Below the pieces are notes generated by a model. The model was not told where the DNA came from and ran no database searches. It worked only from the letters and a program-made list of their open reading frames with translations. From Chloroflexota bacterium (lineage in GTDB: Bacteria; Chloroflexota; Dehalococcoidia; Lucifugimonadales; UBA3495), in the NCBI GenBank assembly GCA_022562475.1, contig JADFPD010000016.1:1-32640 (forward strand): a stretch of 32,640 bases of DNA. Reading direction: 5' to 3'. Position numbers and translations under genes: made by a program. Of the stretch, positions 3,665 through 12,378 are shown piece by piece (the stretch's first letter is position 1; each line of letters starts with the position of its first letter).

Positions 3665-4219
3665 CTAAGTCTCTTTACGGTCCATCAGCCAAGCCATTGC
3701 CTGAACGTCTGCCGACATCCAGCCTTTGGCGGCTTCGAAGCGGGGTTCTTGGATCTCCACGCCCAGGCCGTCGGCCAGGCGGGTCATGAAGTTGAAGCAG
3801 CAGGTTATCAGGACCGTGGAGAGTATCTGTTGATCGCTTAGGCCCAGGCTCCGCAGGCGTTCGACGTCGGCCTTCCTGTTGCCCGACGGGTCCTTGGTGA
3901 GTTTCACGGCGAAGTCCAACATGCCCCGGGTCTGGTCGTCCAGGTCGGCCTTTGTGTAGTCATGCATCATGTGGCTGGAGAACTCGGGGTCGTCGGAATG
4001 CTGACGGAGGAACCCTCCGTGAGCCATGGTTCAATACCGGCAATTATTGGCCGCGGACACCACGGTGGCGATGGCCTCTTCCTGCACCCGAGTCAGGGCG
4101 GATGCGCCGAAGGTGATGGCGGCGTTCATCGCCTGCACCCCTTCCATGGCCTGCTTGTTGATGGACATGCAGGAGATCACCGGGGGCAGGTCTATGCTGG
4201 TTTCTTCGATCCAAGACAT
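3665..4219 (-). CDS. Selenocysteine-containing AhpD-like (CMD family) protein, CxxU
   Basis: Peroxidase-related CMD/AhpD-fold protein of 184 residues, read through an in-frame TGA at 4033-4031 as selenocysteine (U63). Start ATG at 4219 (MSWIEETSIDLPP) is fixed by AGGAG 7 nt upstream. The active site reads N-N-C60-R-Y-U63-T-M-A-H67. AhpD and related proteins have C-x-x-C-x-x-x-H, so TGA falls exactly on the second Cys and the His spacing is right. The rest of the helical fold continues in the same frame without interruption (LGLSDQQILSTVLI, FNFMTRLADGLGVEI) to a TAG stop. A hairpin 10 nt after TGA fits a bacterial SECIS. Likely a thiol/selenol peroxidase or peroxide-linked disulfide reductase in the cytosol; the substrate is unknown. 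It follows the PPOX gene (4309-4785) on the same strand by 89 nt. Standard gene callers would report only fragments. Confidence 0.9.
4004..4020 (-). promoter_or_regulatory. Putative SECIS hairpin of the first CxxU protein
   Basis: On the minus strand, 10 nt after the TGA (4033-4031), ACGGAGG-GTT-CCTCCGT forms a perfect 7-bp stem with a short G/U-rich apex. The apical G is 18 nt after the TGA. Bacterial SECIS elements are hairpins immediately 3' of UGA with a G(U)-containing apical loop at roughly this distance, recognised by SelB. The 3-nt loop is tight; opening one pair gives a GGTTC-like loop. The same ACG/CGT pairs (nt 11-13 with 25-27 after TGA) recur in the second selenoprotein gene. Confidence 0.7.
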
Positions 4220-4308: not shown

Positions 4309-4785
4309 TCAAGAATTAGCCTTCTGCACCTCGGCCCAATATCCCGTCCACTCTTCCCGCATCGCTTCCTCGGTCTTGCCTGGCGTGTATCCCGGAGAAA
4401 CCAGGGCCGCGGCCTTGGTCACGGTCATCAGCACATACCGTTCGGCCGGCAGTCCGGACCTTCGGATACCGTGGCTGCCGGTGGCGTAAGCCTTATGGAT
4501 CTGATCGAAAAGCTCCCCGCCGGTCAACACTTCAGCGGTCCCCTTGAACCGGTAGCCCTTGCGGAGAAAGGTGTCCACGACGTTTATCTCGCAGGCAGGG
4601 TTGTGGCCCAGGTTCTCGATGGTGACCGGAGATCCAAGGTCGGCGAAGACCAGGTGATCGTCATCCCAGACCGTGGCGGTGCCCTTGGGCGAAAGGTTGG
4701 GCGAGCCGTCGGGACAGACGGTGGCCATGAATCCCATGCGCTGCTGCCGGACCACTCGTTTCATGTCATCGGTCAGGATTCCCAT
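4309..4785 (-). CDS. PPOX-class (pyridoxamine 5'-phosphate oxidase-like) FMN-binding split-barrel protein
   Basis: 158-residue split-barrel flavoprotein. The N-terminal part (DDMKRVVRQQRMGFMATVCPDGSP in outline, then NLSPKGTATVWDDDHLVFAD) is the usual PPOX entry: a helix, an ATV-x-P-DG-x-P strand-turn, then a strand with S-P-K-G. FMN or F420 binding and reduction of small substrates is known for the family; the exact substrate cannot be read. ATG at 4785 has GAGGAG 5 nt upstream. It lies between, and on the same strand as one of, two CxxU AhpD-like genes. That context suggests a shared redox role (inference). Confidence 0.85.
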   Translation of the reverse strand: MGILTDDMKRVVRQQRMGFMATVCPDGSPNLSPKGTATVWDDDHLVFADLGSPVTIENLGHNPACEINVVDTFLRKGYRFKGTAEVLTGGELFDQIHKAYATGSHGIRRSGLPAERYVLMTVTKAAALVSPGYTPGKTEEAMREEWTGYWAEVQKANS

Positions 4786-4977
4786 GGTTGCTCCTCAGGG
4801 CCGCTCCCAGGCGGGAAATTGGACGCCAGTATACCCAGGCCGACCGGCAGACGGCAACCATGACCGTCCCACGGCTTGAAGGCGCACGTGGCCGGTGCTA
4901 ACCTTCCCAGATACAAAACCCTTATCCGATGATCGTCATCCAAACCTGATGACCGGCACACAGATTGGAGGCAAGAG

Positions 4978-5613
4978 ATGCCCTACGTGAGGACCATTCC
5001 CTACGAGGATTCCCAAGGTGAACTGACCGAAGCATACGACATCATGATCAAGACGCGGGGACGCATCCCCAACGTCCAGGCCGTGAGCAGCCTCAAGCCC
5101 AACATCATGAAGACCCTGATGGCCCACGTTGGCTCGGTGATGTTCGACGAGTCGGGCGTGTCCCGGGCCGAGCGGGAGATGGTGGCCGCGGTGGTGTCGG
5201 CGACCAACAAGTGCCAGTATTGAACCCTCGCCCACGCACAGGCCCTCCGTGGCGAGGACCCCGAATCGAAACTGGCCGAGCAACTGGGCGAGAATTTCCG
5301 CGATGCCGGTCTGCCGGCCAAACAGATGGCCATGCTGGGGTTCGCCGAATTCCTGACGACCACTCCGTCAGGCATCACACAGGACTGGGTGGATGAGCTC
5401 CGCGGCGTCGGCTGGGATGACGCCGACGTGGTGGACATCGTCCATGTGGTGGCGCTGTTCAATTACATGTGCCGCATCGCCGACGGTCTGGGCGTTGATC
5501 TGGACACCGACCGAGGCTGGGAGGACCAGGTGGACAGGCTATCGTTCAAGGACGATACCCCACCCAAGGTCTTCGGCAAGATAGCTCCCACGCCCAAAAC
5601 GACGGCTGCGTAA
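4978..5613 (+). CDS. Second selenocysteine-containing AhpD-like (CMD family) protein, CxxU
   Basis: 211-residue peroxidase-related CMD/AhpD-fold protein with an in-frame TGA at 5221-5223 as selenocysteine (U82). ATG at 4978 is set by GGAGG 6 nt upstream. The active site is N-K-C79-Q-Y-U82-T-L-A-H86, the same C-x-Y-U-T-x-A-H pattern as in the other gene. The frame then runs open for 130 codons (QALRGEDPESKLAEQLGEN, GLPAKQMAMLGFAEFL, VALFNYMCRIADGLGVDL) to TAA. The N-terminal part contains ELTEAYDIMIKTRGRIPNV, a typical peroxidase-related start. Ending at TGA would delete the catalytic His and half the fold. It diverges from the PPOX gene across 192 nt, which must carry its promoter. Role: probable peroxide or organic-hydroperoxide reduction via a selenenyl-sulfide (inference). 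Confidence 0.92.
5226..5257 (+). promoter_or_regulatory. Putative SECIS hairpin of the second CxxU protein
   Basis: Starting 2 nt after TGA (5221-5223), CCTCGCC (5226-5232), a bulged C (5233) and ACG (5234-5236) pair with CGTGGCGAGG (5248-5257). This gives a 10-bp stem with one bulge and an 11-nt loop (5237-5247) containing adjacent G's at nt 18-19 after TGA. Stem, bulge, loop G and distance all match the general architecture of bacterial SECIS elements. It is coding sequence as well, so the structure constrains codons here. Confidence 0.75.
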
Positions 5614-5687: not shown

Positions 5688-5722
5688 AGAGGGCCGCTAG
5701 CTGATCCAGCCGGCGGCCCTCT
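5688..5722 (-). terminator. Hairpin at the 3' end of the GMC oxidoreductase gene
   Basis: AGAGGGCCGC (5688-5697) pairs perfectly with GCGGCCCTCT (5713-5722) around a 15-nt loop. It overlaps the last codons of the GMC gene and lies between two convergent genes. On the minus strand the stem is followed by TTTAGG, a weak T-tract. Possibly a bidirectional terminator. Confidence 0.5.
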
Positions 5723-7247
5723 CTGCTATCACGATGGCCGTGGCGTTGGTGTTGGCCCGGACGACGTTGGGGCAGATGGATAGGTCCACCACCCGCAAGC
5801 CCTGCAGCCCACGGACCCGGCAGTATTGGTCGACCACCGCCATGGGGTCTGAGTCCGGCCCCATCTTGCAGGTCCCGGATGTGTGCTGGGTGGTGGCAAC
5901 GTTCTGCCGCATCCAGGCGTCGAGCGCTGCGTCGGTGGCAAGGTCTTCGCCGGCGGGCGAAAGCCGGCGCTCCACCAGAGGTCCAAAGGCGGGATGCTCC
6001 AGGAATTTCAGTGATAGGCGAATGGCATCACGCATGCGCTGCCGGTCCCACTCAGTCTCGAAGTACCGGTACTCCAGGCGGGGCGGCCTATCGGGGTCGG
6101 CCGAGTTCAACGTCAACTCTCCGGCGCTGTCGGCCAGCTTCAAGATGCAGGTGATCCTCATGCCTTGGGGGCGGTCTGGACTCCGGCCTTGCAGGGGGTC
6201 GCCGGCCCGCAGACCGGTGAACGACGAAGGGAAGACCTGGATGTCGTTCCGCGTTTTCGATCCCTGGGCGGTGTAGCGCAGCCCGCTCTGGATACGCGGC
6301 TCGACGGTGGCCAATTTTACCCCGGTCCTGGGTTCGAGTTCGATGTTGATCAACGGGTGGTCGCGCAGGTTCTGGCCGACTCCGGGCAGGTCCTTCACCA
6401 CCGGGATGGCCAAATCGCTCAGGTGAGTGGCGGGTCCAACACCTGAAAGCAGCAGCAACTGGGGAGATGCTATCCCGCCGGCGCAGAGGATGATCTCCGA
6501 CCCTTCCACGGTGAACTTCTCGCCGCCGCTCTCCACCTCCACACCCACGGCCCGGCCGCCGTCGAACACCACCCGGTGCACCAGCACGTCGGCCTTGATG
6601 GACAGGTTGAGCCGGTGGCGGTTGGGGTCCAGGTAGGCCAGGGAGGCGCTCATCCGGATGCCGCCGGGGTTGTTCATAGGCAATGCGCCCGTCCCGGTGG
6701 AATCTGGGTTATTCATGTCCGGGTCTTCCGGGAACCCAGCGGCGACCGATGCCTGGTGGAAAGCCTCGTTCACCGGCAAGAATTCTTCCCTGGGCAGCCG
6801 CCAGACCGGGATGGGCCCGTCGGTCCCGTGAAAGTCGTCTCTCACGTCCAGGTCGGTCTCCAGTTTACGGAAGAATGGCAGCAGTTTTACGAAGCTCCAT
6901 TCATCGTTGCCCTCAGCGGCCCAGTTGTCGTAGTCCTCGGGCACGCCCCGGAGGAACACCTGGCCGTTGACCGAGCCGGAGCCACCGATCACCTTGCCCC
7001 GGGCCACCTGCATCGGGACCTTCTGCTCGGGAGTGCCCTGGCCTCGGTAGGCCCAGTTGAACGGCGAGTCGATATCCGTGGCTTCCTGGCGGTATCCCAG
7101 CTTCAGCTCGTCGGGAAGGTGCTCCAAGCCGGTGTAGTCGGGGCCGGCTTCCAGTAGCAAGACCGACCGGTCGGGGTCTTCGCTCAGGCGGGCGGCCAGA
7201 GTGCAACCGGCGGAGCCACCGCCGACGATGACAACGTCGTATCTCAA
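5697..7247 (-). CDS. GMC-family FAD oxidoreductase (choline dehydrogenase-like)
   Basis: 516-residue flavoenzyme oxidising an alcohol-type substrate. Start codon is TTG (MRYDVVIVGGG); AAGGCGAG lies just upstream and overlaps the TAA of the preceding gene. The FAD dinucleotide-binding motif GGGSAG is at residues 9-14 with acidic LLLEAG near residue 33. The GMC signature RGKVIGGSGSVNGQVFLRG lies near residues 82-100. The C-terminal catalytic block carries TQHTSGTCKMG (His455) and, 44 residues on, Asn499 in RANTNAT, the His/Asn pair seen in choline-type members. The substrate is not determinable from sequence. It is co-directional with a luciferase-like oxidoreductase 9 nt upstream, so the two are almost surely one operon. 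Confidence 0.93.
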   Translation of the reverse strand: MRYDVVIVGGGSAGCTLAARLSEDPDRSVLLLEAGPDYTGLEHLPDELKLGYRQEATDIDSPFNWAYRGQGTPEQKVPMQVARGKVIGGSGSVNGQVFLRGVPEDYDNWAAEGNDEWSFVKLLPFFRKLETDLDVRDDFHGTDGPIPVWRLPREEFLPVNEAFHQASVAAGFPEDPDMNNPDSTGTGALPMNNPGGIRMSASLAYLDPNRHRLNLSIKADVLVHRVVFDGGRAVGVEVESGGEKFTVEGSEIILCAGGIASPQLLLLSGVGPATHLSDLAIPVVKDLPGVGQNLRDHPLINIELEPRTGVKLATVEPRIQSGLRYTAQGSKTRNDIQVFPSSFTGLRAGDPLQGRSPDRPQGMRITCILKLADSAGELTLNSADPDRPPRLEYRYFETEWDRQRMRDAIRLSLKFLEHPAFGPLVERRLSPAGEDLATDAALDAWMRQNVATTQHTSGTCKMGPDSDPMAVVDQYCRVRGLQGLRVVDLSICPNVVRANTNATAIVIAERAAGWIS

Positions 7248-7256
7248 TCGCTCGCC

Positions 7257-8204
7257 TTAATCAACCGTGGCCGCGGCCTGTCCCAATAGCCTCATGGTCC
7301 GGTCGAGTGACGCCGCCCGGTCGGCGCCGGCGGTGATGGGCGAGGCCAGCACCTCCGTCGCGCCCATGGCGAACAGCTCTTGGATGCCCTGGGCGCAGGT
7401 CTCTTCATCGCCCCAGATGACCACGCCGTCGATCATGGCGTCGCTCCATTCGCCGCTCTTGGCCTCGGGAAACCCCGACTCGATCAGCATGTTCTGGTAG
7501 TAGGGCAGCCTGGGGTTCATGATCTGTTCCCGCACCGCGGCCCGGACCTCTTCCGGGTTGTCGTGCACGCACACCGGGGCGTGGGCGATGAGCGGCGGCA
7601 CGGAGCGCCCGGCCTCTTTGGCGCCCTTCTCCATGGCCGGAATAGCCACATCTCTCAGGAAGCTTCCGGGGCAGATCCAGCTTATCGCTCCGTCGGCGGT
7701 GGCCCCGCAGAGCTCGAAGGAACCCTTCCTCAGGGCCGAACCCATCACCTGGATGTCCAACGGACCGGGGATGGCCGCGTGGGCGGTATAGTGCTCTCCG
7801 TCGAAGTCCACCGAGCCGGTCTGGAGGATGCTCTTCAGTATCTGGATATATTCCCTGAGATGGGCCAAAGGTGCGTCGAACTCGATGCCCATCGACTCGA
7901 TGGTCGGGCGGTGGCTGGGTCCAACCCCCAACCGGAAACGGCCCGGCGCCAATTGGGCCACCACCTGGGCCTGCTGCACCATGACCAGCGGGTGGCGCGG
8001 GTAGGTGGGAACGATGGAGGTGCCCAGCTTGATCTTGGTGGTGGCAGCCGCCGATGCCGCGAAGCAGGTCATGCTGTCCAGGCTAACGCCGCCGGAGGTC
8101 ATCCAGGCGGCGTGCACGCCCAGTTCCTCGGCCCGCTGGATCTGGCCTTGGACTTCGGCAATCGTGTTGCCCCTCACCGCCGCGCCGACCAGTTTATCTG
8201 CCAT
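7257..8204 (-). CDS. LLM-class (luciferase-like) flavin/F420-dependent oxidoreductase
   Basis: 315-residue TIM-barrel enzyme of the bacterial luciferase/F420-dependent superfamily. Typical marks are AEELGVHAAWM early, TTKIKLGTSIVPTYPRHP (the strand with the cis-peptide region), LAPGRFRLGVGPSH, and TADGAISWICP. Whether FMN or F420 is used cannot be settled from the sequence. ATG at 8204 has CGGAG about 7 nt upstream. First gene of a two-gene operon with the GMC oxidoreductase. This is one of four luciferase-like proteins in the window; they are divergent paralogues, not recent copies. Confidence 0.92.
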   Translation of the reverse strand: MADKLVGAAVRGNTIAEVQGQIQRAEELGVHAAWMTSGGVSLDSMTCFAASAAATTKIKLGTSIVPTYPRHPLVMVQQAQVVAQLAPGRFRLGVGPSHRPTIESMGIEFDAPLAHLREYIQILKSILQTGSVDFDGEHYTAHAAIPGPLDIQVMGSALRKGSFELCGATADGAISWICPGSFLRDVAIPAMEKGAKEAGRSVPPLIAHAPVCVHDNPEEVRAAVREQIMNPRLPYYQNMLIESGFPEAKSGEWSDAMIDGVVIWGDEETCAQGIQELFAMGATEVLASPITAGADRAASLDRTMRLLGQAAATVD

Positions 8205-11820: not shown

Positions 11821-12378
11821 TTAAGCGGGTAGCACCGGTTCGGTGCGGTTGGCCGGCAACTCGGAGTCAAAGGCGTTGACGGCGAAGGCCAGAAGGGCAT
11901 AGTTGCCCATCGTCAGTGTGAGCTCGATCAGGCCCTGCGTGCCGAACTGTTCTATCCCCGATTGGAACGCGCCGCGGCTCACGCGGTGGGTGCGGAAGTA
12001 TTCCTGGCCGTAGTTGATGACGGCGGCTTCGTCGGGGGCCAAGGAGGGAAGCTCTTTCCGGTCTCTAAGGGCGTCCACCACGGCGTCGGGCACTCCGGCG
12101 GCACGGGCGGCGGCGGCATGGGCATTCCAGATGTACATGCAGTCGTTCTCTCGGGCCGTGACCAGCATAGCCAGTTCCAAAACCTTGGCCGACAATGAAG
12201 AATCGTTGCGAAGGTATTGGTTCAGCGCCGTGGCCAATTGTTGGGCTTTAGGCACGTGGAACAATATTGAACCGGGTCCGACCAAAGGCACCGAGCCCGC
12301 ATTTGCGACGATCTGGTCAAATTCGGCGGTCTGGTTGCTGGGAACGGTCTCTCTGGTTGCGGCTGGGATCCTTGCCAT
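11821..12378 (-). CDS. Carboxymuconolactone decarboxylase (CMD) family protein without second active-site Cys
   Basis: 185-residue CMD-fold protein. The motif region reads TARENDC80MYIWNAH87. The Cys-to-His spacing of seven matches AhpD-type proteins, but the position of the second Cys (or Sec in the two CxxU proteins of this window) is Ile83. It therefore cannot form a CxxC disulfide, and is closer to decarboxylase/hydrolase-like CMD members. ATG at 12378 is preceded by AGGAG with a 6-nt spacer. Between an MFS carrier (85 nt upstream) and the epoxide hydrolase (22 nt downstream), so probably in a catabolic operon (inference). Confidence 0.88.
   Translation of the reverse strand: MARIPAATRETVPSNQTAEFDQIVANAGSVPLVGPGSILFHVPKAQQLATALNQYLRNDSSLSAKVLELAMLVTARENDCMYIWNAHAAAARAAGVPDAVVDALRDRKELPSLAPDEAAVINYGQEYFRTHRVSRGAFQSGIEQFGTQGLIELTLTMGNYALLAFAVNAFDSELPANRTEPVLPA

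Follow-up and report, generated by a model that had tools for sequence, protein, structure and literature searches.

Two AhpD-like genes at a conserved locus

The window, the whole 32,640-nucleotide stretch of DNA analysed here, carries two related genes with in-frame TGA codons, referred to as gene a and gene b. Gene b (4978..5613, + strand) starts with ATG, contains one internal TGA at 5221-5223 (residue 82) and ends with TAA at 5611-5613, with a likely ribosome-binding site, GGAGG (4967..4971, +), 6 nt before the ATG. Sequence and translation bear out the first-pass annotation in that the frame from 4978 meets a TGA at 5221-5223, while the 130 open codons it had given beyond the TGA come to 129 sense codons when counted. 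Read through, the frame specifies a predicted AhpD-like selenoprotein of 211 amino acids with selenocysteine (Sec) at residue 82. Gene a (3665..4219, - strand) is a paralogous AhpD-like selenoprotein gene, whose in-frame TGA (4031..4033, -) lies in the context NNCRY-U-TMAH. A gene for a PNPOx_N-family protein (4309..4785, -) lies between the two, in a position kept among relatives, and gene b is followed by a GMC oxidoreductase (5697..7247, -), a syntenic neighbour in most relatives, and by a second syntenic neighbour, a luciferase-like monooxygenase-type (LLM-type) protein (7257..8204, -), the family of which was named by eye. Relatives largely preserve the arrangement a(-), PNPOx(-), b(+), GMC oxidoreductase(-), LLM-type(-).

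The read-through product of gene b scored 139.3 bits against TIGR01926 ("peroxidase-related enzyme", curated cut-off 81.8) and 43.8 bits against Pfam CMD (cut-off 23), and its predicted structure (4978-5610, pLDDT 90.8) has the all-helical CMD/AhpD fold, in keeping with its earlier description as a convincing CMD protein. The top PDB matches of the predicted structure were the AhpD-core proteins 2prr, 6k40 and 3c1l, and 2pfx matched as well. These and M. tuberculosis AhpD (1gu9/1knc) share with gene b the fold and the positions of a Glu, two Cys and a His, but have Cys where gene b has Sec, and in sequence gene b resembles 1gu9 only weakly (E 0.27). The structures of the debrominase Bmp8 (6ohi/6ohj) also match the predicted fold (E 1.4e-5) with only 14-15% sequence identity. 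The AhpD-related (seleno)protein profile NF041238 (CFYUT) has the CxYUT site and the CMD fold in common with gene b, but is longer (357 positions), and gene b falls far below its cut-off (73.3 against 175 bits).

Close matches were found to SAR202 cluster OSU_TB47, Dehalococcoidia UBA2158 and Chloroflexi casp150-mb.275, and sequence comparison places the host of the window in a marine SAR202-type Chloroflexota lineage. The host assembly (G000) holds eight TGA-bearing CMD genes, or six without contig C62 (L100), which bears a second a-PNPOx-b cluster. This contig is 93-97% identical to the relative G002, unlike other G000 contigs, which are 80-86% identical to it, and assembly contamination stands at 4.99%. 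We therefore dropped the C62 cluster as proof of a recent duplication, and the contig is probably bin contamination. A scan for viral contigs found nothing. Further CMD-family genes were seen in the window and beyond it. A third one in the window (11821-12378, -) has a single Cys at the site (CMYIWNAH) and overlaps an epoxide hydrolase gene. Two TGA-bearing CMD genes of the host assembly, G000:C1:2893-3396 (L151) and G000:C114:25709-26173 (L150), belong to other subfamilies, with the sites CATU-RLGR and CPFU-IDIN respectively, and their SECIS elements do not match the hairpin of the TIGR01926 family described below. Four CxxU selenoprotein genes of the TIGR01926 family stand in tandem at L109 (G041:C22). 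Paralogues of gene a in five genomes (L132, L139, L147 and L148 in G016, G025, G015 and G024, and L146 in G013) have Gly in place of Sec (CxxG), and several of these carry a long C-terminal tail ending LYIAYLRWCDDN...RHWWxGI which, by eye, resembles the winged-helix tail of phage-type primases.

The redox site and the predicted selenocysteine codon

The site of gene b reads NKCQY-U-TLAH (C79-Q-Y-U82-T-L-A-H86), with the TGA (5221..5223, +) exactly at the second Cys of a CxxC motif. The first-pass annotation had called for alignment with homologues, and in an alignment of 29 proteins C79 (5212..5214, +), the Sec/Cys column at position 82 and H86 (5233..5235, +) proved invariant. Residues 58-92 of gene b correspond at equal length to residues 109-143 of the 1gu9 chain, a weak match (E 0.27) which sets E67, C79, U82 and H86 against residues 118, 130, 133 and 137 of M. 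tuberculosis AhpD, its catalytic residues, and makes E67 (5176..5178, +) the positional equivalent of Glu118. The TGA-bearing members of TIGR01926 have their TGA at the codon equivalent to 5221-5223, including some 50 homologues from related genomes, and other members of the class have Cys at that codon. Because the site columns are invariant, the TGA codon is shared and the codons after it are conserved, the TGA of gene b is not a chance event.

Genes a and b match at C, Y, U, T, A and H of the site and are about 30% identical as proteins, as the first-pass annotation had it when it described two divergent genes agreeing at the key positions. It had further counted them as two independent genes with TGA at the catalytic codon. 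The conclusion drawn from this, that the codon is no accident, holds; the independence does not, given that a and b are paralogues, and their TGA codons are most likely homologous by descent and not two separate inventions.

Lack of any Sec machinery would have spoken against a selenoprotein, as noted at first pass, and the host assembly encodes SelA (448 bits), SelB (357 bits), SelD (376 bits, with a TGA of its own in HCAGUAAK) and a tRNA-Sec with the anticodon TCA (UCA). SelA scored above the cut-off in 58 of the 60 genomes searched, part of these matches being distant paralogues, and in G008 no SelA match was found. Of 20 window genes checked, 8 end in TGA as an ordinary stop, which indicates that there is no general change of the code. 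With the machinery added to the family, the TGA position, the homologues and the selection described below, the initial assignment of gene b as an AhpD-like selenoprotein gains support from several sides.

The family SECIS hairpin and its change in the focal clade

Published rules for bacterial SECIS elements give a loop of 3-9 nt, an upper stem of 4-16 bp, a spacing of 16-37 nt, a G among the first two loop bases and an energy of <= -7.5 (PMC13188914). The TIGR01926 selenoproteins share a hairpin which fits these rules, with 7 bp at +14..+30 from the TGA and a 3-nt loop beginning with G. In a gap-free alignment of 42 distinct homologues which bear the TGA and do not belong to the focal clade, 98.6% of cells are paired, 41 cells are changed on both sides, and covariation (0.356, against 0.122 in shuffles) exceeds that of all 500 shuffles. 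A separate count over 42 rows, the focal clade among them, found 284 pairs formed out of 294, while 1000 synonymous-codon shuffles reached a maximum of 201 of 294; the protein sequence is thus not the explanation for the pairing. Cys homologues form between 1 and 6 of the 7 pairs, mostly 3, and most do not keep the hairpin.

Gene a carries the hairpin in its family form (4004..4020, -; 7 bp, GUU loop) and scores 59.5 bits against the family SECIS model over the 42-nt stretch from its TGA, with paralogues at 52.8-58.9 bits and the G015 orthologue of gene b at 45.1. Gene b itself scores only 21.4 bits and lacks the regular family hairpin. The focal clade is the one group to have lost it: at the corresponding place (5234..5250, +) 4 of the 7 pairs are left, the other three being broken by the changes GAG->CAG and CTG->CTC relative to G015 and G024. 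The seven genus copies of gene b included in the tree group as a single clade and share the changed hairpin, so that the change is most simply taken as ancestral and as older than the losses of the gene described below.

The predicted lowest-energy fold after the gene b TGA is a stem-loop (5226..5257, +; CCUCGCC, C bulge, ACG; -15.4 kcal/mol) with a long lower stem, which departs from the published loop, stem and spacing rules in its 11-nt loop and its spacing of 13 nt after the UGA. An alternative candidate hairpin, CCUC[CGUGGC]GAGG (5244..5257, +; spacing 24, G at loop position 2), agrees with all of the published rules at -8.3 kcal/mol, as a suboptimal structure 7 kcal/mol above the best fold. 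In G008 the same hairpin belongs to the lowest-energy fold (-11.7), although few sequences are available for covariation. Folding energy alone was set aside as evidence for a SECIS, the z-scores of -1.8 for gene b and -1.3 for gene a not being decisive, and an Rfam scan of the window at gathering scores returned no match.

Selection on gene b and its loss in sister species

The first-pass annotation had proposed dN/dS downstream of the TGA as a check on coding. Against G008, the nearest intact relative (protein 84% identical), dN/dS is 0.06 before the TGA and 0.11 after it; against the copy C62b it is 0.55 before the TGA, where dS is low, and 0.17 after it, and the two downstream values point to purifying selection. 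Between gene b and G008 we observed 29 amino-acid-changing differences after the TGA, while neutral simulations with an equal number of randomly placed changes gave a mean of 56 and a minimum of 43 in 5000 trials. No stop or frameshift follows the TGA in focal gene b, C62b or G008, the lack of new stops after the TGA being not significant when taken alone (P about 0.13-0.17).

Elsewhere in the genus the gene is broken or gone. The orthologue in G003 has a TAG at codon 10 and other sequence from codon 129, that in G004 a TAG at codon 15, TGA->TTA and an 18-nt deletion, and that in G005 a TAG at codon 59 and deletions. In G002 the gene is interrupted by an insertion with inverted IS-like ends and is split over two contigs, at the end of C34 (L107) and the start of C13 (L106). 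Between its conserved neighbours at the locus gene b is absent from G007 and G009. In G002-G005 and G009 the frame of gene a is intact and its hairpin good; the G007 copy of gene a has 6 of the 7 hairpin pairs. Any one lesion in these draft assemblies could be an assembly error, but it is unlikely that four different lesions all are. We considered whether the three early TAG codons might be recoded and rejected this, as the copies concerned carry further lesions. Disruptive changes in related strains downstream of the TGA had been named at first pass as evidence against a selenoprotein, and four broken copies were indeed found. Their lesions fall on both sides of the TGA, however, which indicates loss of the whole gene and is not evidence of TGA as a plain stop. 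The earlier view that decay is very unlikely can accordingly be kept for the focal copy and not for the lineage, with its four broken and two absent orthologues and its lost hairpin.

We conclude that gene b very probably encodes an AhpD-like CxxU selenoprotein, in which UGA 5221-5223 is read as Sec under the guidance of a stem-loop, and which is still selected in the focal organism. The strongest competitor, in our view improbable, is that gene b is (nearly) non-functional, the SECIS having been lost in the genus ancestor, so that the UGA mostly terminates and the frame is a recent remnant. The weak SECIS score and the four broken and two deleted orthologues within the genus would fit such decay. 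Since the changed hairpin is common to all clade members, however, they diverged after it arose, and yet dN/dS after the TGA stays at about 0.11-0.17 and the three intact copies show neither stop nor frameshift there; the broken copies were also hit before the TGA, by the TAG codons at 10, 15 and 59. It is far harder to credit that the 81-amino-acid product ending at the TGA is itself the functional protein with the remainder untranslated. Other genes of this genome do end at TGA as an ordinary stop, but so short a product would break off before both the second residue of the redox pair and the His and would comprise less than half of the fold, and homologues conserve the codons after the TGA. 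Equally implausible is insertion of Cys or Trp at the TGA, whether through a different tRNA or an altered code, a reading which the Cys homologues at this position might suggest. Against it stand the complete Sec system with its tRNA-Sec(UCA), the many genes which use TGA as a stop, and the hairpin of the TGA-bearing members, which most Cys homologues have not retained.

If gene b is a selenoprotein gene, ribosomes would read UGA 5221-5223 as Sec via SelA, SelB, SelD and tRNA-Sec, guided by a stem-loop just downstream. C79 and U82 would form the redox pair of a CMD-fold thiol/selenol enzyme, in which E67 and H86 would assist as their counterparts do in AhpD, and which would likely reduce a peroxide or another small oxidised substrate. 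Activity on halogenated substrates, as a selenol version of a Bmp8-like fold, is a speculation from the predicted structure. Sec insertion at this UGA, its efficiency and the enzymatic activity are what we infer from the comparisons above; the gene with its family and site, the Sec machinery, the downstream purifying selection, the altered hairpin and the disrupted orthologues are what the data show. The family hairpin appears to have been replaced or weakened in the ancestor of the genus, with gene b remaining under selection in the focal organism and G008, and disrupted or missing in six or more sister species. A tentative explanation, possible though less likely than not, is SECIS turnover in the focal clade, in which Sec insertion would continue through a newly registered or atypical stem-loop, with either the long lower stem or CCUC[CGUGGC]GAGG in this role, and at a lower efficiency that would have eased gene loss in the sisters.

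A 2005 study of the Sargasso Sea selenoproteome (PMC1088965) reported AhpD-like CxxU selenoproteins, 299 AhpD-like selenoprotein sequences were found in the GOS data (PMC2398784), and CxxU TIGR01926 is listed as a selenoprotein family in a 2026 review (PMC13188914). Gene b is like these in its family, its site and a SECIS downstream of the UGA, and belongs to a protein family described before; what is unusual about it is its SECIS. It differs from the known members in that the regular apical hairpin, present in the paralogues, is missing from the focal clade, and in its setting, a SAR202-type Chloroflexota genome with several paralogues. In the literature searched no paper mentions SAR202 together with selenoproteins. 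Gene b adds a SAR202-type Chloroflexota paralogue set to a selenoprotein family known from marine metagenomes. At one locus, gene a has a textbook SECIS while gene b has lost its own and is selected in some species and broken in others, a contrast which offers a testable system for SECIS change and selenoprotein gene loss in bacteria.
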